This document shows positions 6,497-42,756 of a stretch of DNA of 64,000 bases, piece after piece; within the stretch, counting starts at the first letter, position 1, and each line of letters opens with the position of its first letter. The stretch is taken from assembly GCA_950106755.1 (NCBI GenBank), contig OX467091.1:5907538-5971537 (forward strand). Direction: 5' to 3'. The translations under genes were made by a program, and so were the position numbers. Origin of the DNA: Climacium dendroides (Eukaryota; Streptophyta; Bryopsida; Hypnales; Climaciaceae). Under the pieces are notes generated by a model. It searched no databases, was not told where the DNA came from, and was given only the letters and a program-made list of their open reading frames with translations.

Positions 6497-7351
6497 CTAG
6501 CAGTTGGTGCTTGCTATGCTACGCATTTACCATTAGATTTTTTTATGTATTAGATAGAATGCAAAGCAAGGATTTCAATAAATCTTCAGATAAAAAATTA
6601 CTAAAATCTTCATATAAATTTTTTTATAAATAAACAGATACTGAAATATATAATAAATATTTAATTAATGATGAATGAAATACATGCAATGATGAATACA
6701 GTAAAAGATACACATACATTAAAATGCATTAGAAATTTAACCCAATTGTTACAAACAATGGCAACCTAAATAAAATAATTTAAAGGAAAAACTTGTAAAT
6801 CTCAAAAGCTTTGTAAACAATGTAATTGTTGTGAAATCCAAAATCAATTCAATCTAATAAATTTCTCAAATCATTTAATAGTAGCAATAGAAAATTGAAA
6901 TCAAAAGCTCAAAGCTCACAAAAGCACAAAATCATAGAAAGGTAAAAGAAGTATAAAGCCAAGAGAAGCAATGGAATTACTCCCTTTATAATATCACCAT
7001 ATTGATCCTCTTTAATATCACCTCAATTGCAATGACTATATTATTTCTATAATATCATCCTTTGTAAAAGTGATATTACAAACATGATTATGAATTACTA
7101 CTCTATTTCAGTAATATCACATTGTGTAAAAATATGATTTTCATGTATGCATGATTGAAAATATTTTTATAGAATAATTAAAATAATTATTTTAAAGACT
7201 TATCGAAATCATTATCATGCATTCTATTCAAATATATCAAATTTTTACTAATATGTGATACAATGAATGTGTAGCATAGCAAGCACAAGCCCCTAGTATT
7301 AATGGTAGCATTTTTGATATTACAGAGGGACTTATGATTTTAGTAGTATGA
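6497..7351 (-). mobile_element. Non-autonomous Helitron-like element 1
   Basis: Read on the minus strand, it starts with TCATACTACTAAAATCATAA (7351 downward) and ends with GCACCAACTGCTAG at 6497, followed by T. The host bases are therefore A before and T after, the A|T insertion rule of Helitrons, with a TC start and a CTAG (CTRR) end. The same termini occur in elements at 53887-54560 and 57431-58114. A 32-bp inverted copy of its 3' end lies about 70 bp inside its 5' end. No Rep/helicase gene is present and I do not see the classical 3' hairpin, so 'Helitron-like' is the safe name. Confidence 0.65.
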
Positions 7352-7963
7352 TTAAAATTCCAATTATCAATAGAAAGATTTTCTTCTCATATTCAAACTT
7401 AAAATAAATCTAAGGTCTCATGAATGTACACTAAAATTTGTACTATTGGTTCTAAAATGGTTCTAAAATTGCCATTTTTAGTGCATTTAGTGAAAGTTGG
7501 AAAAAATCCCTTTTTTCTCTACAAAAACAGATTGTTTCTCTATAAAATGATGAAATGTGTGGAGAAAATTTCAAACCATTTGTCTAAGTTATAGATTGTA
7601 TGTTATAAATGTTCAAAGTGAATGAAAAAAAATTTGTAGCTTCACCAATTGCTTATCCAAATACTTGCCTTACTATCAACACATTGCTTATGTTGCCCCT
7701 AAACTTTCAAGCCCTATAACTTTTGACTCAAACACTTGATTGAAAAAAATAAATTAGGAAGCTTATAAATATGTCCATTTATAATAAGAATTTCACTTTC
7801 ATTTGTTCAAGATTTATTTCATATAAAACTACTTGAGCTTTCAAAATCTCCATGGGAACTTCAAAATCTTCAAAGACATAACTTAATGAATTTCAATTTA
7901 TTTAGTTAATTTCTTTGCCACTTCTTCATGATGATACAACTCATTGCCAAGGCCTCTAAAGGG

Positions 7964-8180
7964 TTGGAGTGAACTAACCCCTCACTTACCCTGCCAAAGT
8001 CATTCCAAGGGTGCATGTAAAACAAAGACCCCCTATTTTGTGCTGGAATAATTTATCTTTTGCACCTCTCCTACCGAATTGAAAATTTGAATTGAAAATT
8101 TGCAAATTTTATCATGTGTGACAAATAAAAATTTCAGCGTTTTCCCTTGGAGACGAGTGAGGGGTCAGTTCATCCCAGCC
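7964..8180. mobile_element. Short TIR element (MITE family 'CCCCTCACT'), copy A
   Basis: The terminal inverted repeats read TGAACTAACCCCTCACT on the left and, as complement, TGAACTGACCCCTCACT on the right, about 217 bp apart. The interior carries AAAGACCCCCTATTTTGTGC and TTTCAGCGTTTTCCCTTGGA. Relatives lie at 35300-35517 (paralogous position), 29970-30200 and 42521-42745. Flanking direct repeats are decayed here but clear in the other copies (11-15 bp). Confidence 0.7.
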
Positions 8181-8219
8181 CTTTTAAACCAATTAAGCTA
8201 GTGAGAGCATACTAAGCTT

Positions 8220-8401
8220 AATGGTTGATCTTGTTGCTAAAGAAATTGACCGTATGATGCTCAGAGTTGCCCTTGAATGTTTCCCCTACTTTGATTTCTG
8301 ACTCTCAGCTCACTGTCTAGAGTTTGTGGCTTGGTTGCTTTGTACTTGGTTCTGGTTCTTTTTAATGCAATGGGGTCTCCCCATTTGTTAAAAAAAAAAA
8401 A
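8220..8401 (+). mobile_element. Poly(A)-tailed fragment, possible LINE 3' end
   Basis: The segment ends in AATGGGGTCTCCCCATTTGT followed by a run of about 11 A. That layout resembles the 3' end of a 5'-truncated plant non-LTR retrotransposon. It is shared with copy B (35560-35741), so it predates the block duplication. No reverse transcriptase is present, and the target duplication is not convincing. Confidence 0.35.
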
Positions 8402-11400
8402 TTGCCTTTGAAATTGAAATTGCTATGGAGCATCGTTCTTATTGTTTTTTTACAGTGATTTTTACATGGGTTGCTCAAGCTGCCTATTGAATGTTGGAAA
8501 TTGCATATCATGTAATAACTTTTTAAGCATGTAGTCAAAAGTTATGAAAATTGTTGCACTTTATAGTTACTCCTCGGGCACGTGTTTTGTGAAATTTTCA
8601 AAGAAAATAAATAAAAATTCCATTTGTAGTGAGCTACCCAAAATTGCTATGATGCTAAAAAATATTGTTTGGACCTTTAGGGGTTAATCCAAAAAAGTTC
8701 TTGAGGTCCATTTTTTTAAAATTTTATTTTGAGCAAATTTTAGTAGCTTCATAATTAGATTTTTAAAATTAATTTAATGTAGCCCCTACATGACTTGGTG
8801 TATATAGAAAGTTTGGTTTCATGAGATTTTGGTAGGTATTGCAAACATTTAATATTTTAAGTATATTTTTGTATTATCTAAGACTTCAAATAGTATTTGT
8901 TTTATTTATATAATATTCAAGTGTTTAGATATAAGTGAAGATGAAGGTAGTTCATTATTAAGAAAAAAAATACCATTTTAAAGTTAATTTTGAGCTCCAT
9001 TTTTTTCTACTTAGGAAAAAAAATTCACAAGGTTTATATGGCTTGCTAAAACATTTTCACTTTGGAGATTAATATAATTCAATTTCATTTTTAAGCCATT
9101 ACCAATTTAGTCTTTCTCTTACATCTTCTACTTCTATGTACTTAGCCTTGCAAGACATTAAATGACTTCAAGTAGAGTTGTACAATGGAAAAAAACATTC
9201 TTCACCCCATTGTTTTTTGGAAATTGCTTGAATGTATTTTCAGTGAATAATATTATATGTTCCTTCATTATAATATGATTGACTTTTCTAAATAAGAAGA
9301 TGCTTAATCCACGAATTACTACCATAATGTATTTTGACCAATCCAATTTTTTGGAATGAATTCAACTCCAACCCAATATTTTAAGTCGTTTCATAATTTT
9401 GGAGCTTTGTGGAATTAATTACAAAATTTTAAAGTTGAAATAGCATAAGGCTATAACCTCTAAAGTCCCATTGTCCCCTAAGGAGACAAAATGGATTTTG
9501 GCAAGCTCCTATGGTTTCAATATTTGTTGTGATTTTTAGAATCTTTTAGAGAAGATAGAATAACACATTTGCTTTCCAAAAAATAATTTTTATATCAATT
9601 GGATCTTCGGAGAAAAAGTTATGAAACGAAAAGTCCTTTTTTTGTTATGGTTTCTCCTACCATAATCCACTCTTGGTGCTTGAAATCCACACAGTTGGCG
9701 ATACCAGAATTTTCGATCATTGATCACATATTTCATCCATTTCTAGATGGGTGTTTGAATAAGAGAATCTTTTCAATGTTGGGAATTTTGAAAACAAGTA
9801 GGCATTCCTTATTAGGCTTCACCCACTTCATCAACTTTTTTTTTTCAAAATTCCCTCTGCCTTAGGGATAACCGTCTATGTTGACCAACAACACCAACAA
9901 CAAATTTGCAGTGCAGTATAGGGTGGATTATTTTGAGTACCTAGTAAGAGTAGAAATCAAAATTACACAGGTTTCTAGGCAAAACAAGGGGTTATGTTTC
10001 CTTCATCCATCTCCAAGTTTGTTCATCTACAAGAAATCTTTTGGGTAAAATTTTGCTTGGATAATTGTGATTTGCAAAGAGCTCTGTAATTTTTTTGTCT
10101 TTTAGCTATCATTTGAAGAGGTTTATTTTCATTGTCAAATATCTATATTTGAGTTTTCTTGTACCTATCCAAAATACTTAAGGATGTGCTTCCAAAGATT
10201 AAAAAGAATTCAAGTTCTACTTTTATACAAGTCAAAAGTTAGAAATAAATTTAAAGGACTAATATACTCATTGTAATATACACATTGAGAACATTTGCAA
10301 TGCTCCTAGGTTCCAAGATAGTAATGGCATAATAAAGGGTCAACTCCCAAAAAATTTCCTTGATGTATTCAACATTGGTCTTTCTTTATTCCCAAGCCTG
10401 TCATTATCCTTTCCAAACTTGATAATTGGTCAAAATGTGAAGGGCTATTGGCTTGACTCACAATACAAAAATTTATTATTGTCATACCTTTTTTTTGTAT
10501 TATAATGTGTACTAATAACTCAACCTTTCCTTGTTTGCATAAAAAATCTCTTTTCAAAATGTAGAATCTTTTTCATTCTTTCTATTCAAAATGCTAAAAA
10601 GTTCATTTGATGTGTGGATTGCCGGCTTTACATTGGGTCAATTTCTCCAAAGAAAAATCCGACACTATATGAGAATGTGTGGAAAAAATTTCAAATTTTT
10701 TGACTGCATAGATTAAAAGATATTTGTGTTTAAAGTAAAAAAACAAATTTTTTAGCACCTTGCGGGACTAGATTATTTGACTTTGAACTTTTTTTATTTG
10801 CACTACAGAGTTTTGAGCTTTAAATCCTAATTGTGGGAAATTGAGTTGAGAGTTTAGGGAAAAAATAATTTCAAAAAAAACTTAATTTTCATGCTTAAAA
10901 AAATTGTTAAGTAGAAGTAGGTATGAAAAAGAAGGAAAATCTAAATTATTAATATCTTTAAGATGAAATTAAAATTCACTAATCCCAATGATGAGATTGT
11001 TCTAGCAAGCCAAAAAAATCATGTGAACTTTTTTTTTCATAAATATTGATAAAATTGCATTTAGAAATGAATTCTATAAGTTGTTTTTTCAAAAAGATGC
11101 TCTAATTGCTCGAAAAACAAGATTGTCTATAACTTTCTCATAACAAGTCCAAATGGAATTAATCAAAGCTTCCCATGTAGAAAAAAATGACCAAAATCCA
11201 ATTTGGCCCCCAAAGGGACAATGGTCCTTTCAGGGGTTAAATATTTTATCATTTCCGAAGCTTGAGTGTAGTTGGATATTTGTGGATTTGTGAGGACTGT
11301 GGAGCCCAAAGACACTAAATGTGGTCGGTGTTTGTTCAGTGTCCCACCAGGCCACTTGTGGGTCATGTTTTATATTTTACCTCTGCAATGAAATCCTGTT

Positions 11401-11424
11401 TCATTTGTTTCAAAAGAAAATTTT

Positions 11425-11600
11425 AAAAAATGTGCCACACAAAGGGGGACTAGCAGAGTAAAAATGCAAAATCTTGCCACCCCTATTTTGTGGTGTAAGC
11501 CGCTGATCACAACTTGAGGCCTCTGATTGCAAATATGAAATCACAATTTACAAATTTTGTAAACCACTGGGGGGAAATGTCCCATTCATTTTGGTAGCAA
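11425..11600. mobile_element. Diverged relative of the CCCCTCACT MITE family
   Basis: Shares the internal landmarks of that family: CACCCCTATTTTGTG, then GAGGCCTCTGATTGCAAATA, then a G-rich right part. Clear terminal inverted repeats are missing. The same relic is in copy B at about 41115-41275. Confidence 0.35.
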
Positions 11601-11847
11601 ATTCTAAGTCATAATTAGGGTTTTCCATCTTGATTACGTCATATTTTGGATTTTTCATCCAAGTTTTTCTATTCATCCCAGGTTGTTTCATTCCGTTAAG
11701 TTGAAGCACTCATGAGCTACTCATTTGTTATTGTTCCAGTGCTCTTGAACCACTGATCTGTGGTGATTGCCCTCAAGGCACATGGTGGCGCTTCTTTATA
11801 TTGGAAAGAAATCTTTGAAGGAGGATTTTTCCCCTGTGGTTAACGTC

Positions 11848-11942
11848 GGGCAATGGCCCTTGTCATCGGGCATTATGAGAAAAAAGGGGCCTCCATGTCT
11901 ACCCCTTTTTTCCCATAATGCCCAACGACAAGGGCATTGCCC
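11848..11942. other. Long inverted repeat (foldback), copy A
   Basis: The arms 11848-11890 and 11901-11942 are complementary with a few mismatches and a loop of about 10 nt. The copy-B counterpart (41543-41655) has perfect 42-nt arms. It could be a foldback transposon end pair or a source of hairpin small RNA. Confidence 0.75.
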
Positions 11943-12836
11943 TATACTTCATGGGTGACTTTTTTTTTAAATTCCTACTTTTTCCCTTTGGGTGAGATTC
12001 TTGTGTGCTTCCACCTTGCTAATCTCATTTTGTGGGACGGATTTATCGTCCTGCTCTCGTTCACAACATGCGCCTTGCCTTGCAGGGACCGGGTTGGGTG
12101 CAGGCCTAAGATAGAAATATCATAAATGGTTAGTGGTTCTTCAATGGTTATGATGTACATGTATTTGTCATTTCAGGACATAAATGTAGCTCTAGAGTAC
12201 ATTGTAACCATTTTAGAATCACTAACCGTTTATGGTATTTCTACCTTAACTGTGGAAATGACATAAGATTGTTAGGAGTCACAAGATAGGTGACAGACAC
12301 CAAAGACCCCAAGTGCGAAGATCATTTACACAATCGGTCGCTTTTGCAGTCCTGCCAGTGCATCTGACAGGTCCTTTTTAATTTAAAAAAAAAAGTTCCC
12401 ACACAAATGAAACAGGATTTCATGGCCAACTGAAGGAAGGCAGACCGAGTATCTTTTGACAGCGAAGACGCCAGCCGCAGGGGGCCTGGCGGAGGTTGAC
12501 AGGGTCTTCACTTCACTACTGTAGGCTTCCCAGACCTCGTTCCTTGCATCGATTGCGCGTTCTGCCTCTCTGGGAGGGCAGGCATGGCCTCTTTAACTTA
12601 TTTATTTTACGCCAGTACGCTTTTAACTCACGTCTCTGCACTTGGTCCAGACTGAAAATCCGCCAGGGTAAATCCAGCCTGGTGGGCCTACTTCGTGGAT
12701 AGGGTTTAACGTCCCCCGTATCTTACTCCAGGGATTCTCCACTTGCGCATCACTGCACACGTACGAAACTACCATACTTAGATGACTGTTTGGAGTCTCC
12801 AAATCGCCTGCAGATTCGGTGCATTTGCAGCCCTTC

Positions 12837-12890
12837 CATTTCTCGTTGACGTACCCAGGCTGGCTTCTTCATCCAATAGTACATTTGGAT
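12837..12890 (+). promoter_or_regulatory. Recurrent upstream module (CAATArTACATTTGGAT), copy A
   Basis: A stretch of about 55-60 bp running from a TTGACG-type start to CAATAGTACATTTGGATG. It lies about 1.1 kb before the ROCO start codon. Related modules occur at 1970-2027, 38909-38968, 42379-42436 and 43090-43143. Repetition upstream of the genes suggests either a regulatory block or an old duplicated element. A regulatory role is inference. Confidence 0.35.
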
Positions 12891-12986
12891 GGGAAAGATT
12901 ACCACCACTGCATTATATATTGGCTGCCTCCTCTCATTGCTGCACTTGCTAATTTGCTTGGCGCGGAGTATGGCCGGCAGCATGTG

Positions 12987-13060
12987 AGCAGGGATCGCTT
13001 CTCACAGGGACCGCTTATTACAGAGATCGCTTTTTACAAGGATCGCTTACAGGATCCGCG
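12987..13060 (+). repeat. Tandem 16-bp repeats GGGATCGCTT-type, five units
   Basis: Units of 13-17 bp built on ACAGGGATCGCTT (variants GGACCGCTT, AGATCGCTT, AGGATCGCTT) follow one another in the GC-richer leader region. Copy B (43251-43293) has two fewer units. This is simple tandem copy-number variation between otherwise nearly identical leaders. Confidence 0.75.
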
Positions 13061-14009
13061 GTCAGTCGCCAAGAAAGCGGGAAGCAAGTGAGTCGCTTAC
13101 GCGTTCGTTCGCCCTGGCAGAGGGAGTTGTTTGTCACCCAGTTCAGCAATTCCATTCACTAGCTCGCATGTTCACTTGGGGGTTGTAATAGCAAGATGTA
13201 GGAGGGCTCTAACTATAGCTGATCGATGGTTTGCAAGAGAAACCCGTCTCGTCAGACTTTCACCACGATCTTACCGTGACCGTCATCCGGTGCTATACGG
13301 TGTGCAGCCGCGCAGTGGGAGCGGGTTCCAGAAGCCAAGATCGAGTCCCGTGAAAGTGAGCTTGATGAGTGTCCATTGACGTCTTGGAGAGCCAAGTAAT
13401 ACACAGACGACTCACTGCGCTGCCAGTTTCGGGTCGACATGCATGCTTGGCGGATCCGAGGGCTTTGCTTTGTGCTCGATCTGTTACAGTGAAGAGATTG
13501 AGTTGTGTCGGGAGATCTGAACTTCTCATACAATAATGGAGCTATCGTTTTCTGCGATTCTACAGCTTGACTAGTGGCCCGCATGGATGGTAGTCGATCT
13601 GGACATCTTTGCCAGCTGGAGGGTCCAGTTCACTTGCCTTGGATGAGTCTGCTCCGTCAGAATACAGACTAGTTACGATTTGCAACCCAGCCTTCTGCTT
13701 TAATTTGGCTGGATGAAGCACTGGATGACCTCCGCTCAGGAACAACTGAATGACTTGCTGCTAAGAATTCGGAGTGTCCTTCGGGTTGGAAGAATTGGAG
13801 GTTGGTGACTTCTTTGTGAGTTTTGAGCAGTACTGGCGTGAAGGATTTGCGATTTACTGCGCAGCAGGAAGAAGGCCTTGGAGGATTATGTTACTGGGGA
13901 CATTTCCAAACATTCACCTATAAGTCGCCAGCCTCGCTCCAGCTCTTGTGATCATCGCAACATCTCTTTGTTTGTGAGTTTTTTGCATCGGAGTCGAGTC
14001 GAGGTCAAG
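13061..14009 (+). promoter_or_regulatory. GC-richer leader / promoter-proximal region of ROCO copy A
   Basis: About 950 bp, nearly identical to 43294-44241 in copy B and clearly richer in G+C than the surrounding flank. It probably contains the transcription start and 5' UTR. The frame of exon 1 is open upstream to 13842 (TGA at 13839-13841) but holds no in-frame ATG before 14010. Small open frames on either strand here are not supported as genes. I could not assign a TATA box. Confidence 0.5.
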
Positions 14010-17000
14010 ATGAGAGAGGTGGTGGCTTTCCTGGTGTGTCTGTTTAGCTTCTGGACTTGGAAAGATTTCTTCCTCCGTTGGCTTGGGAGCCCTTCCTCCC
14101 ATCCGACCAGCGGAGAGACTGCGGAGCATTTGGCTTCCCAGGAAGGGCAACAAGAGTCGGAGTTGGCACGGTTTCTCTCTTCCTTACCCAGAGATGAACG
14201 CAGATGCAGTAGATTGGATTTTGGCCCAGGCCCGGAAATCACTATGCACGTTGGTCATCTCGAGCATGTCATTAGCACGGAAGCAAGCAGTTATCGTGAG
14301 TTCCTAGGAGCAGTTGCATCCTCCGAAATTGTATTTAGTGAAGAAGTGGTCATCAGTCCATGTTTGGGAGAATCTTGCAAGCACTTGGAAGCATTTGGTG
14401 ATGTACTCCGCCAGTCCGGCAACAGTTTCAGAGTTCTCAGGTTTATATGTTTTAATGACTCCTTAGTCCCAGTTGCCAGGTGTGCATCCAGTGTGGTTCT
14501 TGGAAATGATGGTATTAAAGAGCTTGAGCTTCACTTCTCCCCAGGGGAGGAGACGGGCAAGAAGGAGGCTTTGGAGTTTGTGTCCATTATTGTTGCGCCA
14601 CACATTCTTGGAATCCTCAAATCATTTGGAATGACTACAACAGTGTTACTCACAGAGAGAATGGAGAAGTTGTTGAAGTCCTTCCAAGGCCCTCCTAGTG
14701 TGCTTGAGGATTTGTATTTTTATGGTATAACATCAGATGTTCAACTTGAGCATTTAAGTGCCATGCTTGTGTCAAGCACATTCCTCAAAAGACTTCTCAT
14801 CTATAATGGTTTCAATAAGGAACCAAGGAAGGACCTCACGATAGGATACACCACCATAGCAACTGCATTGTGTTCCAACCAATCTCTTGAATCCCTAGGG
14901 TGTGAAATATTTAATAGCACAGAGTTGAAGGTGTTGTTGGATCCGCTCATGTTGAAGAACACCAATCTCCAATCCAACACTACCCTCACCAAGTTTGATT
15001 TATGGGGATCAATTGGAGGAAAAGAGGGGATTGAAACTTTGAATGACATGATTTGCACCAATACGACCTTGCATGAATTGGCTTTGAATGAAATAGCTGA
15101 ATTCTCCTCGCACGGTGAGGAAGCGATTGAGAATGTTTTGGCCGTCTTGGAAGCCCTCAAGTCCAACAAATCTTTGAAGATCATTGGTTTCATTGGGTGT
15201 AGAGCGGTTGGTGGTTACAAAGTGCTTGGAGCTATGATGGACTTGCTCTTGGAAAACTATTGCCTTGAAGACATTGAATTGGATGGCACAGATTTAGAGG
15301 AGACGGGGGATGCAGACTATGTGCGTTCGGCATTATCAAAGAGAAAGAAAGTGAGATTGTGGGGTATTGTACAAGGCATGACAAATGTAAATCCAACATC
15401 TGGACGAGTGTTTTTGTGTGGGAATCCATATGCCGGTAAGTTTTATAATCATATCATGTTTTTGCATACAAATATTTTGTTAATGATAATAATTAATCAC
15501 TTTTTAGAACAAAAATGGATACTAAAGTTATATAAAATATGTACAACAATTTCTTTGAAAGCATGTACATGCAATATTCAACTTTTATTTAGCCTTTAAA
15601 GTCTTGAAGAATGTTTAGAGAGCTTATCGACTTATGTAAAACAATTTGATTTCACATTTATAAGTATTCATTACGATTAATGGATAATTATAAATCTCCA
15701 ATGACCACTTCAAAAGTCTTTCAAATGATATAAATATGTAGTTATATAATGTTATTGATTTTTTGGAAGAGAATATTGTGCATATATTGACAAAAAATTA
15801 TCTATGCCATTTAATTTGAGATAATAGAATATGAAGAAATTCATATTCTATCATATCACTTTCTAAACAATGTATCTTGAGACTTCATCATAAGTACTAT
15901 TCATATTTTTAGCACTTCTATTTTTTAATGTATGTCTCATAATTTGTATAACATTTAGTAGTACAAAATAGGTATGGGCTTGATGTAACAAATATCATTA
16001 CAATCCCCATACAATTGTGTCTTTCCCCTATGTAATTATAGGAGAATTGGTAAAAACTTGGATATGTCATTTCCAAAAGAATTGAGATCTCACAAGAAGA
16101 GATGAGGATATGCATTATGAATGCAAATGACATAATGATACGATCACTAATAAGCAAAAAATCAAATTGATGTCAAAGCATTATATAATTTGATGGTTGA
16201 AAAATGAGATAATTGGTCTTTCTACCAATTGAATATTGATATTTGTCTAAAATATCATCTTATATTGATAACCACAAATGGTTGAACCAATCCATGGTAG
16301 TAAATTTTCATACTCTATATGTTCATGTTTGATTCATATAATTCCAATCAATATTCTAAAAGTTAAAGTTCTTTCTCACCTTCAAACAATCATGCAACAA
16401 CTTTACATTTATTATGCTTTAAAGTATATTGATGTGGTTGCATAGGAATTGTTTTATATTTGTTCAATTGTCAAAGATGACAACACTTAGGTAAAACATC
16501 AACATCAAATGTTATTTCAAAATCCAAATTTGAATGCTTCCATATGTGATTATTAGCTTATTGATATATTCAAAATGACAAGTGCTACTAAACTATATTT
16601 GAATATGTAAGATATGATAGTTTAATGACTCCGACTTGTATCACATCATGAATTGTATGTGATGAATGTGGGAGTTTGGAATGAAATTCTAAACTAAATA
16701 AACTTCAATTGCTTTTGTTCTAGGTAAAACAAGGTTGCGCATGTCTATGAAGCAATTGGAGGAATTTCAAGGAAAACATGAAGTTCAAAATCGTCCAAGG
16801 ATTCGAGACAAAATAAAGAACAAACTCAAAATGTCAAGTACTCCAAAAGTGTTGACAAAGAACATATTTCTCGACCGAACACACGGCATTGAGGTTGATA
16901 CTATTTTATGCAATGACATGAACATCACCATATGGGATATGGCTGGCCAAACGGACTATCATTCATTTCATGAGTTGGTGATGCCCAATCTATCCGCCGA

Positions 17001-19707
17001 TGGAAGTTGTTCATTGTTCTTGCTCATGTGCAATCCCATGGAGCAATGGGTTTCCTCAAAAAGAAGGAGCCCATCCAACATCCAACTTGAACTTGCATCT
17101 TGGTTGCGCTTCATTGCTTCCAATACAAGGCGATCACTTTCCTTTCGTCCACATGTGTCCATAGTGATGACACACTTTGATCAATGGATGGAGGATACTA
17201 CATTTGCAAGACGCATTGGTGATGTGGTTTTGGAGTTGAAATCTCAATTCAGTGAGGTCCTTGAGTTTGACAAAGATGACTTTGTATTCAAGGTGGATGG
17301 TCGAGATGTATCTCATGCTCGTGGTGTGTTTGATTTCATCCAAACCCACTTGAAGCAATTGTTGGAGAGATTGCCCAAAACCATAAGAGCATGTGATGAA
17401 GTGCAACGTTTGGTGGCATTATGGAATGCAGACAAATCCAAGCAACCGTTGTTGAAGTGGGAAGAATTTGCTGAAGGTATTTGCAAGGAAGTGGAGGAAT
17501 TGAATGATGTGGATGTTGAGCTTAGTAAACAACGGAAGGAGTTTGTAGCTATATCATTGAATGATGGAGGGCACATCATTTACAATGAACAAGGAGTGGT
17601 CATCACCAATCCCCATTGGTTTTGTCATGATATCATTGGAGAATTCCTACACCAATGTACAATCATAGATGCCGAATTGGAGATGGTTTCGGCCAATGGG
17701 ATCATATCCACGGAGCATATGAAGCGCTTGATATTGCAGCTTGTGGAAGGCCAAGGAGAGATGGAGAAACAATTTGATGACATCTTGGGCATGATGATCA
17801 AACTCCATATATGCTATCAACAAGATGTTGATTACATTATGATTCCATCCACTTTGAAAGACAAACATGAAAGTTTGAGTTGGTTAGCAAAAGATGAATC
17901 AATAGGCTTCACCTATGTTGGAAGAAGATTGGCTTGCAAAGATGGAATTAAGACGATGTTGACTCCTGGTTTCTTTGCACGGCTTCAGGTATTACTTTGG
18001 ATTTCATATTCTAGATTGAACGAAATCCATATGTTTTTTATGTTCACTTATTCAACTTCATCTTTCCTTGATAACAATAATTCATCTACCATCCACCTAG
18101 AGTTCCAATCGTATTGAAGTTTATGAAATAGAACAGTTATTGAGGAGAACAAATCTTTGTTTGATTTGGAGTGCTCATTTTCAATGACAACATGCTACAT
18201 TTTTTTCTCTAATATTTTGATTTGCAAGTCTATGAGATATGATTCCTTCTAGTTGAATAGGTGGAATATTACATTGACTTTACTCTTCATAAAAGGAAAC
18301 ACACTCACTTGTTGCAATGTTGTGTAGGTTTCTTTCTTCAAGAAGCTCCAAAACAAGAATGTTCAAGATACTTACGAGGTGTTTCGAGATGTTATCAAGT
18401 TCATCAGTGATGGCATTGAAGTCATTCTCCAATTCCATCATGGTGATGTGGACATCCTTTTACGATCCCATCAATGTCAAGACAAGATGTTGGAATTCCT
18501 TAAAAGCGGAATTGTGCAACACATCAAATATCTCCAAGAAGATCCCACATTGGGATGTCCTGGAGTGCATCTTGTTGAATACATCTTGCGCCCTACGTGT
18601 GTACAAAGGTTGGTTGATTCCAAAGACCGCAAAAATCAATGTGTTCAATTGAAAGACTTAGAAGTGGAGGTTATGAAAAATGGTGTGGAAGCAACACATA
18701 ATTGGAAGCCATGTGAAAGTTTGGGCACTAACTATGACAAGGTGAGCACTTTGTTGGGAAGCATGGCATGGAAAACCCTTTTAGAAAGGCGGTCACGTGA
18801 CCTTCAACACTATTACAAGACAATTCAATCTTTGGGAACTATGACCCAAGATGATCAATCCAACTACTCCAATCAAAAGAGAGCTTCACCATCCTCTTCC
18901 TTTTGGCAAACAACACGGAAATTGGTCTATGGGCCTATGGATGACAAATTAGACCACATCATAAGAGTCCAACATGAACATCATCAAGAGACAATGTCAA
19001 AATTGGACAATGTCGTACAACATTTGGAACATGGCATTCCGAAGATGCAAGGGGAACTATTGCACGAGGTGTGTTCCAAGATAGATGGTTTGATGGCCTT
19101 CTCAATGGAGATGCAACAATCCCAAATTCCAAAGTTGGCTTACCTTTGTGAATTTGGGAAAAGGAGGTTGTTGACAAGGTTGGTGCCCGATCTCAACAAA
19201 ATCCAACTCCACTTGATGTGTGAAAGTATACAAGGATTCCATTTGGTGGCAAACCAAGAAGGTTGTGTTGTGAATTTTGGAACGGAACATACACAAAGGT
19301 TTCTTGCCATGTTGGGTTGGGGTTTGAAGATAGCCACCATATTGACGAAGATTGGTGCACATGTTGCTTGTGGTATGGGTGAAATGGTCCTTGATTTTAG
19401 TGATGTGGGTGGCTTTGCAGCCTTGATTCTTGACACACCTGGTATACTAGAATATGAAATTCCCACACAAACTTTGGAATCACTTCCAACTAATTTGAGA
19501 AGTCACTCAAGGGAGTCAATTGGTGATACATCAATGGCGCAAAAGTGGTTGAAAGATTTTTTGGAGCCGAAATGTGAAAATAAGCGAGGGTTTTATGAGA
19601 AATTTGGATTGAAGAAGGTTAGATATAGAAGAGCGGGTGGATCTATAGCTTGGATTTGTGATGACTGCATTTCCAAGGATGGAAGTGAACTTGATGAATT
19701 GAAATGA
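14010..19707 (+). CDS. LRR-Roc-COR (ROCO) protein, TORNADO1-like, copy A; join(14010..15435,16724..17988,18328..19707)
   Basis: Three exons give 1356 residues, close to Arabidopsis TORNADO1 (about 1380). GT-AG introns are 15436-16723 and 17989-18327. The first in-frame ATG is 14010; the longer frame from 13878 begins with TTG. Residues 1-27 form a hydrophobic, Trp/Phe-rich stretch that could be a signal anchor. About 100-460 are ribonuclease-inhibitor-like LRRs. The Roc GTPase follows: P-loop GNPYAGKT (471-478), WDMAGQ (546-551), THFD (625-628). Next come COR (NPHWFCHDIIGEF, LTPGFF, LRPTCVQRL), a coiled-coil-like stretch, and a TORNADO1-type C-terminus (HLMCES, KFGLKKVRYR, IAWICDDC). Family knowledge: plant ROCO proteins lack the LRRK-type kinase; TORNADO1 acts in leaf and vein patterning. 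No kinase is seen here. The LRR differs sharply from copy B while the rest is conserved, so a recognition role is possible. An NLR receptor is excluded because NB-ARC motifs are absent. Confidence 0.9.
15436..16723 (+). other. Intron 1 of ROCO copy A (phase 1)
   Basis: Donor G|GTAAGT and acceptor TTGTTCTAG|GT. It splits the last glycine codon of the Walker A motif, between GNPYA-G and KT. 1288 bp, AT-rich, about 95% identical by eye to copy B intron 1. No embedded gene or element is seen. Confidence 0.9.
17989..18327 (+). other. Intron 2 of ROCO copy A (phase 0)
   Basis: Donor CAG|GTATTA and acceptor TTGTGTAG|GTTTC, 339 bp, the same length as in copy B. It lies in COR after GFFARLQ, and the downstream exon continues with VSFFKKLQ. 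An open frame runs 129 bp into it but does not match the TORNADO1 pattern there. Confidence 0.88.
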
Positions 19708-20399
19708 AGTGGTAGTAGTGATTGCAAATTTTAGATGAAGTATTAGAATGTGAGGGAGTTGATGATGTAGGCTTGTTGAAGGGAGTGTACCTAGTTTTTA
19801 TAGACAACAGACAACTTTGCCGTTTTGCATTCTGATTGTAGTATTTTTGATAACTATCTGATACATATTCTTTAGATGGTCAATTTTAGATTTTTTGGGG
19901 GAAAGTATTTGATTCTCTTGTTTGATAGGAAGGCAATTTAAATTTTAAAACATGGCATTGTGATGAAGATGTGGTTGATATACATTGAAACTAAAAGGTT
20001 GCAATTGAAAGTATGAAACACTACATCAAACTATGTAGTTCAGGTATCATTTATCAGAAATTAATACTCAAATGTATCTATGGTTTATCATAGCTATGTC
20101 AAATGTTTAATGCAATCTTAAACATGCAAATAGAAGTAGACAATCTAGCTTTATAGTATTGTACCACCATTCAATTTGTAAACATAATGTTGTCTATTTT
20201 GAAATTGAAAACAAGTTTACATGTTTACATGATATTAATGAAGAAACAATTGTTAGGATACTATAAGCTATGAAACTTTAGAGAAAAATTTAGAGTACAC
20301 TAAGTGCTTCAAAGACATACTTTCAGCATAATTGTGGTTGGTTTAACCTAGATTTAGCAATAAATTATAGAGTAAGTGGGTTTATTAGTGTGGATTTTT
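19708..20399 (+). other. 3' flank and probable 3' UTR of ROCO copy A
   Basis: Close to 49968-50650 for the first 250 bp after the stop, then more diverged, as expected for a 3' UTR passing into non-coding DNA. No clear poly(A) signal can be singled out. Confidence 0.5.
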
Positions 20400-23300
20400 C
20401 CTAGTAATAATGTTTCTTATCAGCTTTGAAAAGCTATATTGAAATGATGATTTTATTTTTTCCAAATAACTTTGGTCATGTTGAAGCACAACTATTACAC
20501 TCGTATAGATTGGTTTTTATCAAAATTTGAAAAAAAATTTAGACATTTTTTAAATTTACCTAAAATTTCTTGGTGAAGAATTGAAGAAGAATATTTAATA
20601 GAAGTACAAAATCTTGAAGATTTTTAAGAAATAAATCGAGGATTATTTCTGGACTTCATAAGTAAAAATATACATAGATTTCAAATTCATTTCATAGATT
20701 ATTTTTTATTGAAATATGAATCCAATATTTATACTTTTAATAATATACTCAAAAGATCTTCAAATGTTTGTGGAACATTTGAAATGTTTATATATTATTT
20801 TTTATGATTTGTATTAAAAGAAACTTGAGTGAACTTTGAAAAGTGTAGTGCTTAGGGGTCAAATTTCATGCCATTAAATTTTGAAACTCTTAAGTATTTT
20901 ACCATAAATTTCTGAAATGAATTCTCGTTCCTACCACCAAAGATTCTTCAAGATTTTGTACTTGTTTTGAATTTGTTTTTCAAGAATAAATTTCAATTAA
21001 ATATCAACATATTGTGATTTAATTTCAATAACATTTTATTCAATTGTGTTATTTGTACCTCAATATGTCCAAAATTTGTTGAATGAATTTAATTTTTTAA
21101 TGATTAATGAAATTTTTGTAAATATACAAGACATTTTGAAACCTACCATAACTTTCATGTAAAGTTATGAATACGTTATAATGAACACAACCACAAATAG
21201 TGCAAATAGTAGAAACAATTACAATTCAATGCATTGCTCAAATCGTCATTAAATAACAAAGCACTAAGCCACCAAAGGCTTAATGATGATTCAACTTCAC
21301 AACCCAAAAAAGAGCACAAAAAAAAGCTTCTTTTCTCTCCTTTGCATCACATTCTTATCATCACCAAATCCCTCTAGTTTTCTCTATCCAAACTAGGATC
21401 ATTTCCTCAAATCTTCTAATCTTACACCAGTGCTAAGTATGTAATTTTTTTTATCACTTTAGTTTTATATTTTGACTATATTTTAATTCCAAAATTAGAA
21501 TTCAATAGTATTAAAAAAGATGGGTCACTCCTTTATCACTTCAACTCTTTAAGAAGCACTTACTATCACTTTGGATAAAGACATGATTCAATCCCTTATA
21601 CATCATTCTCACCCTTTACCACATTTGAGTTGTGCATCCTTTATCCATCTAAAGATTTTTTGAATTTGTTCATCGTTTACTTATACACTAGCCACATCCA
21701 ATATGTAGTTAGTCCAATCATCCCTAGACCTTATACTCTTTTAATGAAAGAGTGCTTGAAGAGTCACTAGGTACAATATACATAGTGAAGTTGTTAATTC
21801 AAATTTCGAACAACACACATCCAAGCACACAAAAATGCATTTCTCCATCCATTGATTTTTTGAAAATTCTTGTATTAGTTCCTTAGCATTTCTATAACAT
21901 CAATTATGAAGACTTTGGTTTGCAACTATTCTACTTACATCACTTGGATTACTAAATAAAATACAAATCTTCAAAAGTCACTACAATGGAAATGTAACCT
22001 TTTGATTTTAAAGGAAAAAAGTTCTTGAAATTCCAAATATTGGATCTACAATTGAATTTAGAAGGAATTTCCAATTTTAGGCTTCTAATTTTATTTAAAA
22101 ATATTGGTTTGTAAACTAGATAATCTATCACTATAGACATGATCTATGGATTATATTTTACAACTATTGTTTCAAATTCATCATTAAATTATTATTCTAT
22201 GTTGCATTATATAATACATTTGGATTGCCCCTAGTTCTTAAATGATTAAAGTAACTTAAATCCACTATAAAGGAATGAACAAGTTATGCACTCTGCTTTC
22301 ACTTCCACGCATGCACATTCAATTGTAAATTCAACACAACTCCCTCTTTAGTGGTTTAGAGTCGTCAAATTTCTCCAATGGAAGAAGTTGACACATTACA
22401 AGAAGATTGCAAGGACTATGGTTTACATATGTCTTGTAAAATTACTCCCAAGCTTCTTTGATGCCCCAATTCATGCTCTCAAACTCACAAATTAATCAAT
22501 TTTGTTAAATTGGCATAATTCTTGTACCAAAACTTGTAACAGTTATAATCTAAAATCTAAGACAACTATAGATTTGTGTTTCAAAATGCACATACTGGAA
22601 GTGTCAATGCTGCCAAGTTCATGAAATTTAGTTTAACCCTTAAACATTGAGGTGAACATTTGACATTTGATGGATGCAAGAGAATTTTTTTGTGTAGGAT
22701 AGAAGTGCAACTATTCATCTTCAAAATTTTGTGTGAAAAGGGGAGATCTTCTAGAGTATTTTGACATCCAATGAATGAACCAATTCAAAATGATTTCAAA
22801 ATGTTAGAGCTTCCATGCAAAATGAAAACACAACAATATCACTCATAGACGAGCTCATGGATTGAAAGATTATAAATATTGTTTGACCATGAGGGTGGAG
22901 GTACAACTGTGGAAGTGATTTGACATCTTTCAACCCTCTTTTACGTTGTCAAGTATGAAATTGAGGTCACCAATAAAATACAAGGTGATATGCATAACTC
23001 CAATCAATTGACAACTTCTCAAAATCTACTCAACAACTCTTGTAAATGAATCCACTCTACAACTTTTTCTCTAAGACTTAGAGTATTTGACGCTCATTTC
23101 CAAGAACCCTCAACGCTACAAACCAAGATTTGCATTGGACAGCCTTGCACAAAATCTTGAATAGAAAAATCATGATCATTCATTTTCAAAATTGGATTTT
23201 TGGTGTTAAAACTAGACTTCATAAAGAACCTTTCAGATATATAAACTACTAAAAGTAGTGACTTGATAAGGTTTTCTTTGACTTCAAAGTTTTGTGAATA

Positions 23301-23604
23301 CCAAAATTTGGTACCAAAGGCATTTGAAGTCACTGCAAAATTGAAGCATACATTCAAGAGCTGCTCCGCATTGGAAGCCTGAGCCAAGCCATTGAAGTAG
23401 ATCTCAAGCTGAACTGGCCCCTTTGTTCACTCAGCCCCTAAAAGTCTTTATAGGGGTGCAAGTCCCAAAAAATCCCCCTATTCTATTTTTGGTTAATTTA
23501 CCTTTTCCACCCTTCATGGCTGATTTGGGGCCTTTGGTCACAAAGAATGTTAATATGTACTAGTAACTATAGCTGTCACAAGCTTTTATATTCTTTTCAA
23601 ATTG
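20400..23604 (+). repeat. 3' repeat unit D, copy A-1
   Basis: A unit of about 3.2 kb that recurs after ROCO B at 50651-53886 (closest match), again at 54561-58210, and as a truncated piece at 23605-24183. It ends with a relic of the CCCCTCACT MITE family (about 23405-23550). Apart from the minus-strand open frame at 23094-23387 I see no coding signal. Confidence 0.7.
23094..23387 (-). other. Conserved open frame in repeat D, identity unknown (copy A)
   Basis: The 97-codon frame is also open in the paralogous copy at 53414-53686. The proteins share about 85 positions with few changes (core AEQLLNVCFNFAVTSNA, GTKFWYSQNFEVKENLIKS). The frame has no ATG at its start and stays open upstream through QLEIYFNGLAQAS, so it looks like an exon or gene relic. 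In the best comparable part I count four silent and about five replacement changes, which is too few to prove constraint. A decayed third copy lies near 29250-29340. I do not recognise the family. Confidence 0.3.
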
Positions 23605-24183
23605 TCATACTAAAATGATAAATTAGAATTTTTTTCAAATAACATTGAACATGTTGAGGTACAAGTAACACACTTGTATCAATTGATTTTTCTAAACTTC
23701 GAAATAATTTTCAGACATTTATTCAATTTTAATTGGAATTCTTCAATGATGAATAACATTTAATAGAAGTACAAAATCTCCAAGACTCCGAACTAAGTAG
23801 CATGAGATTCTTTTCGGAATTCTACAGTACAAGTAGTCATCAATTTTGAAATGATTGAACTGAGTAATATTGATTGAAATTTGACCCCAAACATTTACAT
23901 TTTTCATTATATACTCAAAATATCTCCAATTATTTGTGGAACATTTGAAAAGTGTATATCTTATTTATCATGATTTGTATCAAATTTTAGAGTGAATCAT
24001 GAAAAGGAAAATATTTAGGATCAAATTTCAAGCCATTAAAATTTCAAATTTTTGAATATTTTGCCACAAAATTCTAAAATGATTCTTGTTCCTATTACAA
24101 AAGACTCTTCAAGATTTTGTACTTATCTTCAAAAACAATTCCGGAGTAAATTTCAAATAATCATTAACATTTCTCAATTGGGA
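23605..24183 (+). repeat. 3' repeat unit D, copy A-2 (truncated)
   Basis: Repeats the start of unit D (compare 20430-21010 and 54561-55145). It breaks off near 24183 and joins sequence that is otherwise found at 62093. It corresponds to the first part of the B-2 unit, so the two-unit arrangement existed before blocks A and B separated. Confidence 0.65.
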
Positions 24184-34480: not shown

Positions 34481-35299
34481 ATTGTATCCCACAGGGTCAT
34501 CAACTTTATAGAAAAGGAGGTATTATTCAACTTTGTGAACTTAGACCATTAGGCAAGTAGTCATATTAGTTGCATGCATGCCAATTTTCAAAAATGATTG
34601 AAGTGTTTAACATACCCCAAGCCATCTTGCATTAAAAAGTGTCCCAAAACAACTAGATGAATAAAATTTCAAATTTTTTTGGAGAATTAAAATTATAATT
34701 ATCAATAGAAAGTTTTTTTCTTCTCATATTCAAACTTAAAAAAAATCTAAGGTCTCATGAATGTACACTAAAATTTGTACTATTGGTTCTAAAATGGTTC
34801 TAAAATTGCCATTTTTAGTGCATTTAGTGAAAGTTGGAAAAAATACCTTTTTTCTCTACAAAAACACATTGTTTCTCTATACAATGATGAAATGTGTGGT
34901 GAAAATTTCAAACCATTTGTCTAAGTTATAGATTGTATGTTATAAATGTTCAAAGTGAATGAAAAAAATTTGTAGCTTCACCAATTGCTTATCCAAATAC
35001 TTGCCTTACTATCAACACATTGCTTATGTTGCCCCTAAACTTTCAAGCCCTATAACTTTTGACTCAAACACTTGATTGAAAAAAATAAATTAGGAAGCTT
35101 ATAAATATGTCCATTTATAATAAGAATTTCACTTTCACCTGTTCAAGATTTATTTCACATAAAACTACTTGAGCTTTCAAAATCTCCATGGGAACTTCAA
35201 AATCTTTAAAGATATAACTTAATGAATTTCAATTTATTTAGTTAATTTCTTTGCCACTTCTTCATGATGATACAACTCATTGCCAAGGCCTCTAAAGGG

Positions 35300-35517
35300 T
35301 TGGAGTGAACTAACCCCTCACTTACCCTGCCAAAGTCATTCCAAGGGTGCATGTAAAACAAAGACCCCCTATTTTGTGCTGGAATAATTTATCTTTTGCA
35401 CCTCTCCTACCTAATTTAAAATTTGAATTCAAAATTTGCAAATTTTATCATGTGTGACAAATAAAAAATTTCAGCGTTTTCCCTTGGAGATGAGTGAGGG
35501 GTCAGTTCATCCCAGCC
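35300..35517. mobile_element. CCCCTCACT-family MITE, copy B
   Basis: The paralogous counterpart of 7964-8180 at the same relative position, with the same terminal inverted repeats, so it was inserted before the block duplication. Confidence 0.7.
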
Positions 35518-35559
35518 CTTTTAAACCAATTAAGCTAGTGAGAGCATACTAAGCTTAAT

Positions 35560-35741
35560 GGTTGATCTTGTTGCTAAAGAAATTGACAGTATGACACTCA
35601 GAGTTGCCCTTGAATGTTTCCCCTACTTTGATTTCTGACTCTCAGCTCACTGTCTAGAGTTTGTGGCTTGGTTGCTTTGTACTTGGTTCTGGTTCTTTTT
35701 AATGCAATGGGGTCTCCCCATTTGTTAAAAAAAAAAATTGC
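35560..35741 (+). mobile_element. Poly(A)-tailed fragment, possible LINE 3' end, copy B
   Basis: Counterpart of 8220-8401 with the same GGGGTCTCCCC motif and A-run. The open frame at 35668-35862 runs through the tail and is not a gene. Confidence 0.35.
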
Positions 35742-37949
35742 CTTTGAAATTGAAATTGCTATGGAGCATCGTTCTTATTGTTTTTTTAAAGTGATTTTTA
35801 CATGGGCTGCCCAAGCTGCCTATCGAATGTTGGAAATTGCATATCATGTAATAACTTTTTAAGCATGTAGTCAAAAGTTATGAAAATTGTTGCACTTCAT
35901 AGTTACTCCTTGGGCACGTGTTTTGTGATAGTTTCAAAGAAAAGAAATAAAAATTCCATTTGTAGTGAGCTGCCCCAAATTGCTAGGATGCTAAAAAAAT
36001 AGTGTTTGGGCCTTTAGGGGTTAATTCAAAAAAGTTCTTGAGGCGCATTTAAAAAAAAAATTATATTGAGAAAAGTTTAGTAGCTTCATAATTAGATTTT
36101 TAAATTAATTTAATGTAGCCCCTACATGACTTGGTATATATAGAAAGTTTGGTTTCATGAGATTTTGGTAGGTATTGCAAACATTTAATATTTTAAGTAT
36201 ATTTTTGTATTATCTAAGACTTCAAAATAGTATTTGTTTAATTTGTATAATATTCAAGTGTTTAGATATAAGTGAAGATGAAGGTAGTTCATTATTAAGA
36301 AAAGAAACACCATTTTAAAGTTAATTTTGAGCTCCATTTTTTTCTACTTAGGAAAAAAAATTCACAAGGTATGGCTTGCTAAAACATTTTCACTTTGGAG
36401 ATTAATATAATTCAATTTCATTTTTAAGCCATCAGCAATTTAGTCTTTCTCTTACATCTTCTACTTCTATGTACTTATCCTTGTAAGACATTAAATGACT
36501 TCAAGTAGAGTTGTACAATGGGAAAAAACATTCTTCACCCCATTGTTTTTTGGGAATTGCTTGAATGTATTTTCAGTGAATAATATTATATATTCCTTCA
36601 TTGGAGTATGATTGACTTTTCTAAAGAAGAAGATGCTTAATCCACGAATTACTACCATAATGTATTTTGACCAATCCAATTTTTGGGATTGAATTCAACT
36701 CCAACACAATATTTTAAGTTGTTTCGTAATTTTGGAGCTTTGTGGAATTAATTACAAAATTTTGAAGTTGAAATAGCATAAGGCTATAACTTCTAAAGTC
36801 CCATTGTCCCCTAAGGAGACAAAATGGATTTTGGCAAGCTCCTATGGTCTCAATATTTGTTGTGATTTTTTGAATCTTTTAGAGAAGATAGAATAACACA
36901 TTTGCTTTCCAAAAAAATAATTTTTATATCAATTGGATCTTCGGAGAAAAAGTTATGGAACGAAAAGTCCTTTTCTTGTTCAAGGGGTAGAAAAAAAACT
37001 TACAAAAAACTAAAAGTAAAAAATTTGTATTGTATAGATTATATTTTTATGTACATAGTAAGCTTTGATTCATTCCATTTGGATTTGTTATAAGCAAGTT
37101 TTGGACAATTAGAGCATCTTCTTGAAAAATAGCTTGTAGGATTCATTTCTGACCTCAATTTTTTTTTTTAAAGTTTCACAAGGTTAAGGTTGCTTGCAAG
37201 AACAATCTCACCATGAAATTAGTGCTTTTCAATTCCATCTTATAGCTATTAACAATTTAGATTTTCCTTCAATTTTGAACCTACTTCTATTTAACAATTT
37301 TTTAATGAATGAAATTTAACTATAATTTTTTAAAATTATTTTTCCTTTTCTCTCAACTCAATTCTTTATCACATAAAATTATAAATTCAAAATCAGTATG
37401 GCAAAAATTATAAGTTATAAAGGTTTAAAGCCAAGTAATGTAGTTGAGCAAGGTGCAAAAAAAATTGTTTCCTTCACTTTAAACATAAATTTCTACCAAA
37501 CATTCTGACACTAATCTAGTACAAGATTCTATAGTTAAATATGCAAAAAAGAAAAAACTTTTAAAACTTTTTTACTCGTTGCTATAGAAATGGTAGTTTT
37601 GAGTGTTTTTGGATGGAAAAGAGGCCTTGGGACTTTAGGGGCTAAGAGCATCTCACCCACCTTGCATTTGGGATGACTTCTTTGTCAAGGCTTGCAAAAC
37701 TACCCCACCCATTCTACATTTGGGATGATTGGTTTGTTGGATTTGCCTACAAAACTCAATAGGCTTGCAAATGTGGTCATTTTGCTAGTGGGGAACTTGG
37801 CTTGCTCGTGACCAAACTAAACAATGAAACAAGAAAAAAGAAGATCTCCTTCAGTACAATGTTGCCTTTGATTTTCTTAAATGCTACCTCCAAATTCAAT
37901 ATTGCTCTCCTAGGTGCAAGAATCTCTGAAGACAAGGGATATTAACGCC

Positions 37950-38590
37950 TAAATGCCTAAGCCACCAAATTCTAGTGTCAACAATACTTTGAAGTTAAAT
38001 AATATCCCACTAACTTGCTGTTTTTAGTAGTTTTTATTTTTGACAAATTCTTTTTGAAGTCTAGTTTTAGCATCAAAAATCCAATTTTGAAAATGATTCA
38101 TTATGATTTTTCTATTCAAGATTTTGTGCAAGGGTGTCCATTGTAATCTTGACTTTCCATAGTATTGAGAGGTCTTGGAAATCAACCTCAAATACACTAG
38201 ATATTGGAGAAAAAATCACATTAGAAATTCATTTAAAAAAAATTGTAGAGTAGATTTCAAGAAGCCAGAAATTGATTGAGATTATGCATGTTAGGCCCTT
38301 CAACTTCATGTTTTTTTGGTTACCAATTTTTTAGATTTGACTTGCAAAAAGAGAGCTAAATTTTTTTATGGTTTTAACACCTCGATTTTTAAGCATTATA
38401 ATCTCTCACTCCATAAGTGATATTGTTACCTTTTTTTTCCTATGTGATCTTTAACATGTCTGGCTTGAATTTGATCGGTTACAATTGAGAAAAAATTGAT
38501 AGAACTTATAAAAATGTTGACATTTTGTTCAATTTAGAGCAAATTCCAAGAAGCTCAAAATAGGCCTTGGGCATTTGAAAGTGAAGATGG
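37950..38590. repeat. Insertion in copy B carrying an inverted fragment of repeat D
   Basis: Copy 0 lacks this stretch: its sequence jumps from GACAAGGGATATTAA to the GGGTTGG text that follows 38590 in B. Inside, 38068-38305 is the reverse complement of about 53280-53515 of the 3' unit D (landmarks TTTTTCTATTCAAGATTTTG and GTAGAGTAGATTT). 3' unit sequence has therefore been moved, inverted, into the 5' flank. Confidence 0.6.
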
Positions 38591-38908
38591 GTTGGCCGGG
38601 CCACTAGGCAGTCACTTTTAGCTTGCTTTACAAATAAATGCACCTTTTACCATTTTTGCTTGGCTTGTTTAAGGGGTTACAGGTAGGGTTGCCATTTCCA
38701 CCTGGCCTGCAAAGTAGATGGGTTGTGATTTTGGAAGCCAAATCACCTCCATTTTGCAAGATGGGTGGTGATGCTCTAAAATGATTCACGTCCTAAAATG
38801 TACATTGACTGTACATTGGTGAAGGTACATTAACATGTACAGATAAAATGTACATTAACACATACAGACAATGTAGCCGGTCTGGCAAATAATTGCATCC
38901 CTCCATAT

Positions 38909-38968
38909 GATTTCCGTTGACGCATATTGTTCGTGCCGACTTGCTCATACAATAATACATTTGGATGC
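38909..38968 (+). promoter_or_regulatory. Recurrent upstream module, copy B distal
   Basis: TTCCGTTGACGCATATTGTT through CAATAATACATTTGGATG, about 5.3 kb before the copy B start codon. It is nearly the same as 1970-2027 in copy 0; copy A lost it in its 2.1-kb deletion. Confidence 0.35.
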
Positions 38969-41542: not shown

Positions 41543-41655
41543 GGGCAATGCCCTTGTCGTTGGGCATTATGGGAAAAAAGGGGCCTCCTCGTCGGGCTAT
41601 GCCCTCCTTGTTTGCCCCTTTTTTCCCATAATGCCCAACGACAAGGGCATTGCCC
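41543..41655. other. Perfect 42-bp inverted repeat (foldback), copy B
   Basis: Arms 41543-41584 and 41614-41655 are exact reverse complements around a 29-nt loop. The arms begin GGGCAATGCCC, itself palindromic, and contain a six-A run. The loop holds a smaller GGGCTATGCCC hairpin. Copy A (11848-11942) has the same structure with mismatches. It could be a young foldback element or a hairpin RNA source. Confidence 0.85.
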
Positions 41656-42378
41656 TGTACTTCATGTGAAAATTTTAAAAATTCCTACTTTTTCCCTTTG
41701 AGTGGGATTCCTGTGTGCTTTCAATGGTTATGATGTACATATACTTGTCATTTGAGGACATAAATGTAGCTCTAGAGTACATTGTAACCATTTTAGAACC
41801 ACTAACCGATTATGGTATTTCTACCTTAACTGTGGAAATGACATAAGATTGTTAGGAGTCACAAGAGTGGTGGCGATGCAGGAGAGTGCACCACCAAAGA
41901 CACCAAAGACCCCAAGTGCGAAGATCATTTACACAATCGGTCGCTTTTGCAGTCCTGCCAGTGCGTCTCACAGGTCCTTTTTAATTTAAAAAAAAAAGTT
42001 CCCACACAAATGAAACGGGATTTCATGTCCAACTGAAGGAAGGCAGACCGAGTATCTCGTGACAGCGAAGACGCCAGCCAGGCGGAGGTTGACAGGGTCT
42101 TCACTTCACTACTGTAGGCTTGCTCCGGAGCTCCAGACCTCATTCCCTTGCATCGATTGTGTGTTCTGGCTCTCTGGGAGGGCAGGCATGGCCTCTTGAA
42201 CTTATTTATTTGTCAGCAGTAAGCACACCCCTTACGTCTCTGCACTTGGTCCAGACTGAAAATCCGATGGTCTGCAAATTTTTAGTTTAATTCAACTTCA
42301 TTTTTTCGACACAAATGAGACGCACTCGGATTTGTCTGCAAGTTTCAGTTGCCACATCAGTTGGCGTCCCTCCACTCA

Positions 42379-42745: not shown

Positions 42746-42756
42746 GCCCCAACAGG

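Follow-up and report, generated by a model that had tools for sequence, protein, structure and literature searches.

An expanded LRR-Roc-COR gene family in the moss Climacium dendroides with a predicted, positively selected concave LRR face: a likely recognition-receptor repertoire

Recognition receptors of plants are usually taken to be NLRs, receptor kinases or receptor-like proteins, and for plant NLRs and LRR receptor kinases diversifying selection at the faces of the LxLxx strands goes along with clustered birth and death of genes. In these receptors the switch is an NB-ARC domain or a kinase, whereas the moss family described here carries a Roc-COR module. The nearest described parallel lies outside the plants: the LRR-ROCO candidate immune receptors of the brown algae Ectocarpus and Saccharina resemble the moss genes in LRR-Roc-COR order, in forming an expanded family and in the selected concave face, which is a predicted one in our case (PMC11378527). 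In the brown-algal genes, every LRR is encoded by a separate 72-bp exon subject to shuffling and alternative splicing, and four concave sites are described as positively selected; in the moss, a land plant distant from brown algae, all 11 repeats reside in one exon (14010-15435), and diversity comes from gene duplication and changes of codons. The same source lists one or two ROCO genes in plants, ten in Chara and nineteen in Gonium (PMC11378527). For Arabidopsis TORNADO1 (TRN1) and the angiosperm ROCO proteins, a second source likewise describes a ribonuclease-inhibitor-type LRR followed by Roc-COR, with one or two genes per plant and a developmental role, in contrast to the large cluster and the hypervariable face of the moss (PMC4104024); the angiosperm protein compared in this study is P0006. 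Compared with the brown algae, the gene architecture, the mode of diversification and the lineage differ, while domain order and selected face are the same. Among the matches listed in our literature searches, no paper on ROCO diversification or a ROCO repertoire in mosses or other bryophytes was found.

The window, i.e. the whole 64-kb stretch of DNA analysed (5907538-5971537 of contig C40 in a 412.6-Mb assembly), contains two intact tandem LRR-Roc-COR (ROCO) genes, A and B, both on the forward strand. They lie some 30 kb from each other within a segmental duplication, of which copy 1 (7351-23621, forward strand) matches 34686-53906 with rearrangements. Gene A (14010-19707) encodes 1356 amino acids and gene B (44242-49967) 1357, each in an intact frame and in three exons. 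Exon 1 (14010-15435 in A, 44242-45667 in B) holds a conserved hydrophobic N-terminal stretch, the whole LRR and, in A, the first half of the P-loop, which is interrupted by the phase-1 intron 1 so that the donor completes GNPYAGKT together with exon 2. Exon 2 (16724-17988 in A, 46981-48248 in B) encodes Roc and the first part of COR (COR-A), and exon 3 (18328-19707 in A, ending with the stop at 19707; 48588-49967 in B) the remainder, which from the alignment with relatives is likely the rest of COR and a C-terminal region. Besides A and B, no further ROCO match was found in the 64-kb window. Its first 4622 positions are an older third copy of parts of the 36.4-42 kb segment and of 7.3-12.3 kb, in pieces that are 77-90% alike, and an open reading frame on the minus strand (63061-63864) matches Rce1-like CAAX proteases (PF02517, E 1.4e-7).

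The Roc motifs GxxxxGK[TS], DxxGQ and THxD are present in gene A as GNPYAGKT (residues 471-478), WDMAGQ (546) and THFD (625), and likewise in B. Together with a COR directly after Roc, these motifs place A and B, at the level of sequence, in the ROCO class, and GTP binding and hydrolysis are predicted from them. The Pfam matches of A to Roc (E 6e-4) and to COR-A (E 3e-4, residues 713-852) stay under the curated cut-offs, while the relative P0001 exceeds the Roc cut-off and the relative P0005 has a COR-B match at its residues 889-1021. A genome search with the COR-A profile gave six places, none over the cut-off, so Pfam undercounts this family. The family profile matches the structure chains 3dpu, 3dpt and 6hlu (Roco), and for a model of exon 2 (pLDDT 67) the top two structural matches are the C. 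tepidum Roco 6hlu and LRRK1. NB-ARC is absent among the Pfam matches of A at E <= 0.1. The hydrophobic N-terminus is common to 22 aligned intact copies of the genome and to P0001-P0003, P0005 and P0007, and is not found in P0008-P0015.

An earlier note on this DNA had described an exon 1 that is almost unchanged between A and B up to about residue 70 and then differs at about 75 of the next 400 residues, with only 3-4% divergence in exons 2 and 3 and about 5% in intron 1. These figures were reproduced: residues 1-70 are identical (0/70 differences), of the 405 codons for residues 71-475, 77 have replacement and 20 silent changes, the protein part encoded by exons 2-3 differs by about 3.5%, and intron 1 by 61 of 1288 aligned bases (4.7%), but unevenly, with 8.1% in its first 470 bp (15436-15905) and 2.8% from there to 16723. 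The hand count for 14401-14569 (16 replacement against 4 silent codons) proved exact. Along the protein, the difference amounts to 20.0% in residues 71-450, compared to 3.5% in Roc, 3.2% in COR, 4.8% in the linker and 3.4% in the C-terminus; for exons 2-3, dN is 0.015 and dS 0.035. At the DNA level, divergence between A and B jumps from 0 to about 10% near 14220, in B likewise past codon 70 of exon 1, holds across the LRR and drops in the first 470 bp of intron 1, after which it is mostly 2-3% up to about 19900. Intron 2 is an exception (17989-18327 vs 48249-48587), as it differs by 7.7% between A and B while the adjoining exons differ by about 2%; towards a third close copy, gene C (C40:5881103), the intron differs by 5.0-6.8%.

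The replacements are concentrated on what is predicted to be the concave side of the LRR. An AlphaFold2 model of exon 1 of gene A (alignment of eight sequences, mean pLDDT 77) is a regular beta-alpha solenoid, and the LRRs of NLRP3, NOD2 and ribonuclease inhibitor are among the best structural matches listed; the LRR type is shared with the moss family, and no further kinship is claimed. The clustering of A-B differences on the strands, as proposed in the earlier note, holds in this model: 29 of 80 DSSP strand residues differ, compared to 19 of 169 helix residues and 28 of 131 others. In such repeats, the Phi+1 and Phi+3 positions face the concave side. Using a Phi1-x-Phi2-x register that was assigned by eye on the 11 repeats with the A-B differences in view, 18 of these 22 positions differ vs 53 of 328 others (Fisher p = 2e-10), and a second register assigned by script gives 16/22 vs 55/328 (p = 5e-8). 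Phi+1 and Phi+3 differ in nine of the 11 repeats each; the other offsets from Phi-12 to Phi+2 do so in 0-3 and those from Phi+4 onward in 1-6 repeats. A wider, five-position face mask performs weaker than the two-position mask (odds ratio 3.3 vs 23), and 10 of 349 shifts of the sliding five-position mask reach the observed value. Instead of being scattered over the fold, the variable sites are thus mainly strand positions that are predicted, from repeat register and model, to be concave, together with the next loop.

The two genes belong to a larger family. On contig C40, a genome search with exon 1 detected 25 near-complete LRR exons, which form groups at 3.55-4.13, 4.96, 5.57-5.95 and 9.62-9.84 Mb; it also gave one stop-bearing match on C41, fragments, and weaker matches on further contigs, and the exon 2 search gave places matching these loci. 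The family is expanded, with about two dozen members on C40, and mostly clustered. Broken copies occur alongside three near-identical pairs, so the family is gaining and losing genes. The group at 3.55-4.13 Mb is a minus-strand array in which the near-identical recent duplicates L025/L027, L015/L023 and L012/L017 lie beside diverged copies. For sequence comparison, 24 of the 29 loci L009-L037 were extracted, omitting L029, L034, L035, L036 and L037 (partial start, stops, split or fragment). Without L018 and L026, which contain a stop, 22 intact copies were left, and without the near-identical L017, L023 and L027 there were 19 for the codon models. A search of 17 gene stretches for exon 2 located it in 16 of them, with a stop in L032, and the comparison of LRR and exon 2 is based on 12 genes. 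Across the 22 intact copies, mean entropy at the face is 2.31 bits, compared to 0.46 for core positions and 0.91 for all others (face vs rest p = 7e-10).

A dN/dS above 1 at the variable face, which the pattern between A and B had suggested, was obtained with NG86 counts, partition models and site models alike. By NG86, dN between A and B is 0.77 at the 22 face codons vs an LRR-wide dS of 0.11, while the whole LRR has dN 0.113 and dS 0.111; when the face is widened to 55 codons, its omega is 2.4 (bootstrap 1.3-4.4), compared to 0.79 (0.51-1.35) for the remainder. For the 19 LRR exons (348 codons) we applied our own codon models (GY-type, F3x4), in which a nucleotide tree supplied the fixed relative branch lengths; the figures are therefore approximate. 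The partition model yielded an omega of 3.19 for the face, 0.63 for the rest and 0.36 for the core, and fixing face omega at 1 costs 2dlnL = 151. A structure-blind M1a/M2a-like test on the same exons gave 2dlnL = 275.7 and 30 selected sites. Of these, 13 fall on the Phi+1 and Phi+3 positions and none in the core; counted from the first hydrophobic residue of the strand, 27 have offsets of -1 to +6. When three copies with a stop in exon 2 or 3 were left out (16 sequences), 2dlnL was 223.3, and the groups taken alone also gave a signal (60.1 for 3.5-4.1 Mb, n=7; 40.7 for 9.6-9.8 Mb, n=5; 47.8 for A/B/C, n=3). In the 12 genes with both parts, the same test reached 189.7 for the LRR vs 0.87, a null result, for exon 2. 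The first 70 codons had 2dlnL 54.1 with three sites (67, 68 and 70), all within the first predicted strand. Recombination among paralogues can inflate such site tests. Tree-free counts gave a face omega of 1.4-6.7 in 15 of 18 pairs listed, which are not independent of each other, and 0.33-1.25 outside the face; the other three pairs arose by recent duplication, are near-identical and show 0, 0 and 1 changes at the face. Positive selection is confined mainly to the strand positions around Phi-x-Phi-x and the next loop, and purifying selection acts on the core and on exon 2.

A comparable pattern is found in a second moss. The nearest database proteins, P0001-P0003 of Ceratodon purpureus, are 48-50% identical over 99% and group with A and B in the tree at a support of 100. 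In this subfamily, Ceratodon has three 90%-clusters that were found, plus more distant ones; the proteins are annotated as hypothetical in databases, and no description of them was found among the literature matches listed. The angiosperm protein P0006 (Rhynchospora), the outgroup of the tree, pairs with P0004 at 72 and is 25% identical to P0001 over 78%; by pattern search, it has no GxxxxGK[TS] P-loop, unlike the moss proteins. Variable sites among P0001-P0003 coincide with those between A and B (of 377 sites, 65 and 67 are variable and 31 are common to both sets, p = 4e-10), i.e. the same positions vary in both mosses. Among Ceratodon protein pairs with less than 35% Roc-COR difference, all 32 listed were tested, eight of them in a first round, and in 32/32 the differences are enriched at the same 22 sites of the face (odds ratios of 4.4-31.7, with p < 0.05/32 in every case). 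The ratio of LRR to Roc-COR divergence is 0.65-1.32 in 28 of these 32 pairs and 1.6-7.3 in the other four; face enrichment is therefore general, but an LRR excess over the GTPase half is not. Such an LRR-wide excess is limited to close pairs; in older ones, the background may have caught up. For example, P0009 (M758_1G291000) and P0014 (KC19_1G298900), from two Ceratodon assemblies, differ by 15% in the LRR and by 2% in Roc and COR.

The comparison with gene C allows insights into the exchange between copies. Upstream of the variable segment, the three genes are near-identical (12700-14219, forward strand), with 1.7-3.0% difference in 12700-14009 and none over the 210 coding bases of codons 1-70 (14010-14219), silent sites included; exons 2-3 differ by 1.7-4.2% at the DNA level. 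In the hypervariable segment (residues 71-447; 14220-15350 in A), the distances are 10.5% for A-B, 9.1% for A-C and 10.8% for B-C, with 44, 63 and 47 changes unique to A, B and C. The 3' flank is a mosaic: A and B are alike in 19410-19900, where C differs by about 10-15%, while in 20010-21400 A and C differ by 3-7% and A and B by 14-20%, which shows that exchange among copies occurs. This raises the question whether conversion or unequal exchange alone made the LRR patch, one copy having taken a diverged tract from a third paralogue with the replacements as passengers, a source that the earlier note had considered as a contributor. Such an import would fit the mosaic flank and the raised silent and intronic divergence between A and B over 14220-15905 (8.9% vs 2.9% in its neighbours). 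The earlier remark that silent change is raised in the LRR stands for A-B (0.115 vs 0.032-0.037 in exons 2-3) and also for B-C (0.131 vs 0.074-0.080), but fails for A-C (0.073 vs 0.071-0.073). The LRR between A and C thus looks ordinary and it is the GTPase half of A and B that looks unusually young. Moreover, A, B and C are roughly equidistant in the LRR, a GENECONV-like run test on them was null, each of the three stays at least 13% away from all 19 other intact copies in windows of up to 60 codons, and import alone cannot lift face dN to 0.77 at an LRR dS of 0.11. For the sampled copies, the third paralogue as source is largely refuted, and we regard conversion as the sole cause as very improbable, although import from a lost or unsampled copy may have occurred. 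Conversion may touch the LRRs at times, as one of ten pairs in the 9.6-9.8 Mb cluster (L016/L021) has a significant shared run. The simplest reading of these distances seems to be that the 5' region and the GTPase half of A and B were homogenised while the LRR kept its age, that of B being perhaps slightly older. A gradient as left by somatic hypermutation, starting at about codon 71 and fading in intron 1, was also considered and set aside, because silent divergence between A and C is equally high in exons 2-3.

It could also be argued that the LRR is a scaffold under weak constraint and evolves by drift, given the whole-LRR omega near 1 between A and B and the broken copies. However, drift yields an omega of at most 1 and not 3-4, the core has an omega of 0.36, the predicted helices vary least, and the same positions vary independently in Ceratodon. 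Relaxed constraint over the whole LRR is ruled out by the partition and site models, and as an explanation of the variation we give drift a slightly smaller chance still than conversion alone. More weight, though well short of a favoured position, is due to a developmental family in the manner of TORNADO1, the copies of which would have been subfunctionalised to different endogenous partners and would not form an open-ended repertoire. The plant ROCO protein that has been studied in detail is indeed developmental (PMC4104024), but a large family with tandem birth and death, broken copies, and LRR selection in three separate subsets resembles an arms race rather than a settled choice of partner. 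A role in self/non-self, mating or gamete recognition in place of immunity shares the receptor function with our preferred explanation and would have diversity kept by an advantage of rare types. It is unlikely on balance, but still the most probable of these alternatives: the strong LRR divergence of likely counterparts in the two Ceratodon assemblies is equally compatible with balancing selection and with an arms race, and a reproductive link was not found in our data.

We therefore return to the reading that this is an expanded, mostly clustered moss LRR-Roc-COR family in which the predicted concave face is positively selected and which probably serves as a repertoire of recognition receptors; on the basis of codon statistics and the structural model, we hold this with reasonable confidence. 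With a predicted face that outpaces silent sites and a conserved GTPase part, the copies probably form a sensor repertoire for varied partners, e.g. microbes, and the family may combine ligand recognition with signalling through Roc-COR. Microbial molecules are the most likely ligands, with self/non-self or mating recognition as the main alternative. In such a system, the ligand held in the LRR horseshoe would differ between copies or change over time, and its binding would shift Roc-COR to another GTPase or dimer state and so trigger a common response via the conserved half. New copies would arise by tandem duplication, exchange between them would homogenise the 5' region, the N-terminus and the GTPase half, and selection would hold the LRR halves apart. 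Whether the family forms a moss immune (or allorecognition) repertoire built on a Roc-COR switch and not on NB-ARC or a kinase, with an LRR half diversified by selection, a signalling half kept uniform by exchange, and an origin separate from the exon-shuffled brown-algal version, is a wider proposal for which we see the chances as evenly balanced.

If it is true, a moss array of about two dozen genes, most strongly selected on the face predicted to bind, would add another type of switch to plant recognition, in parallel to the brown algae. In addition, the copies would provide a natural set of LRR variants for LRRK-type GTPases, which may help to understand how ligand binding controls Roc-COR.
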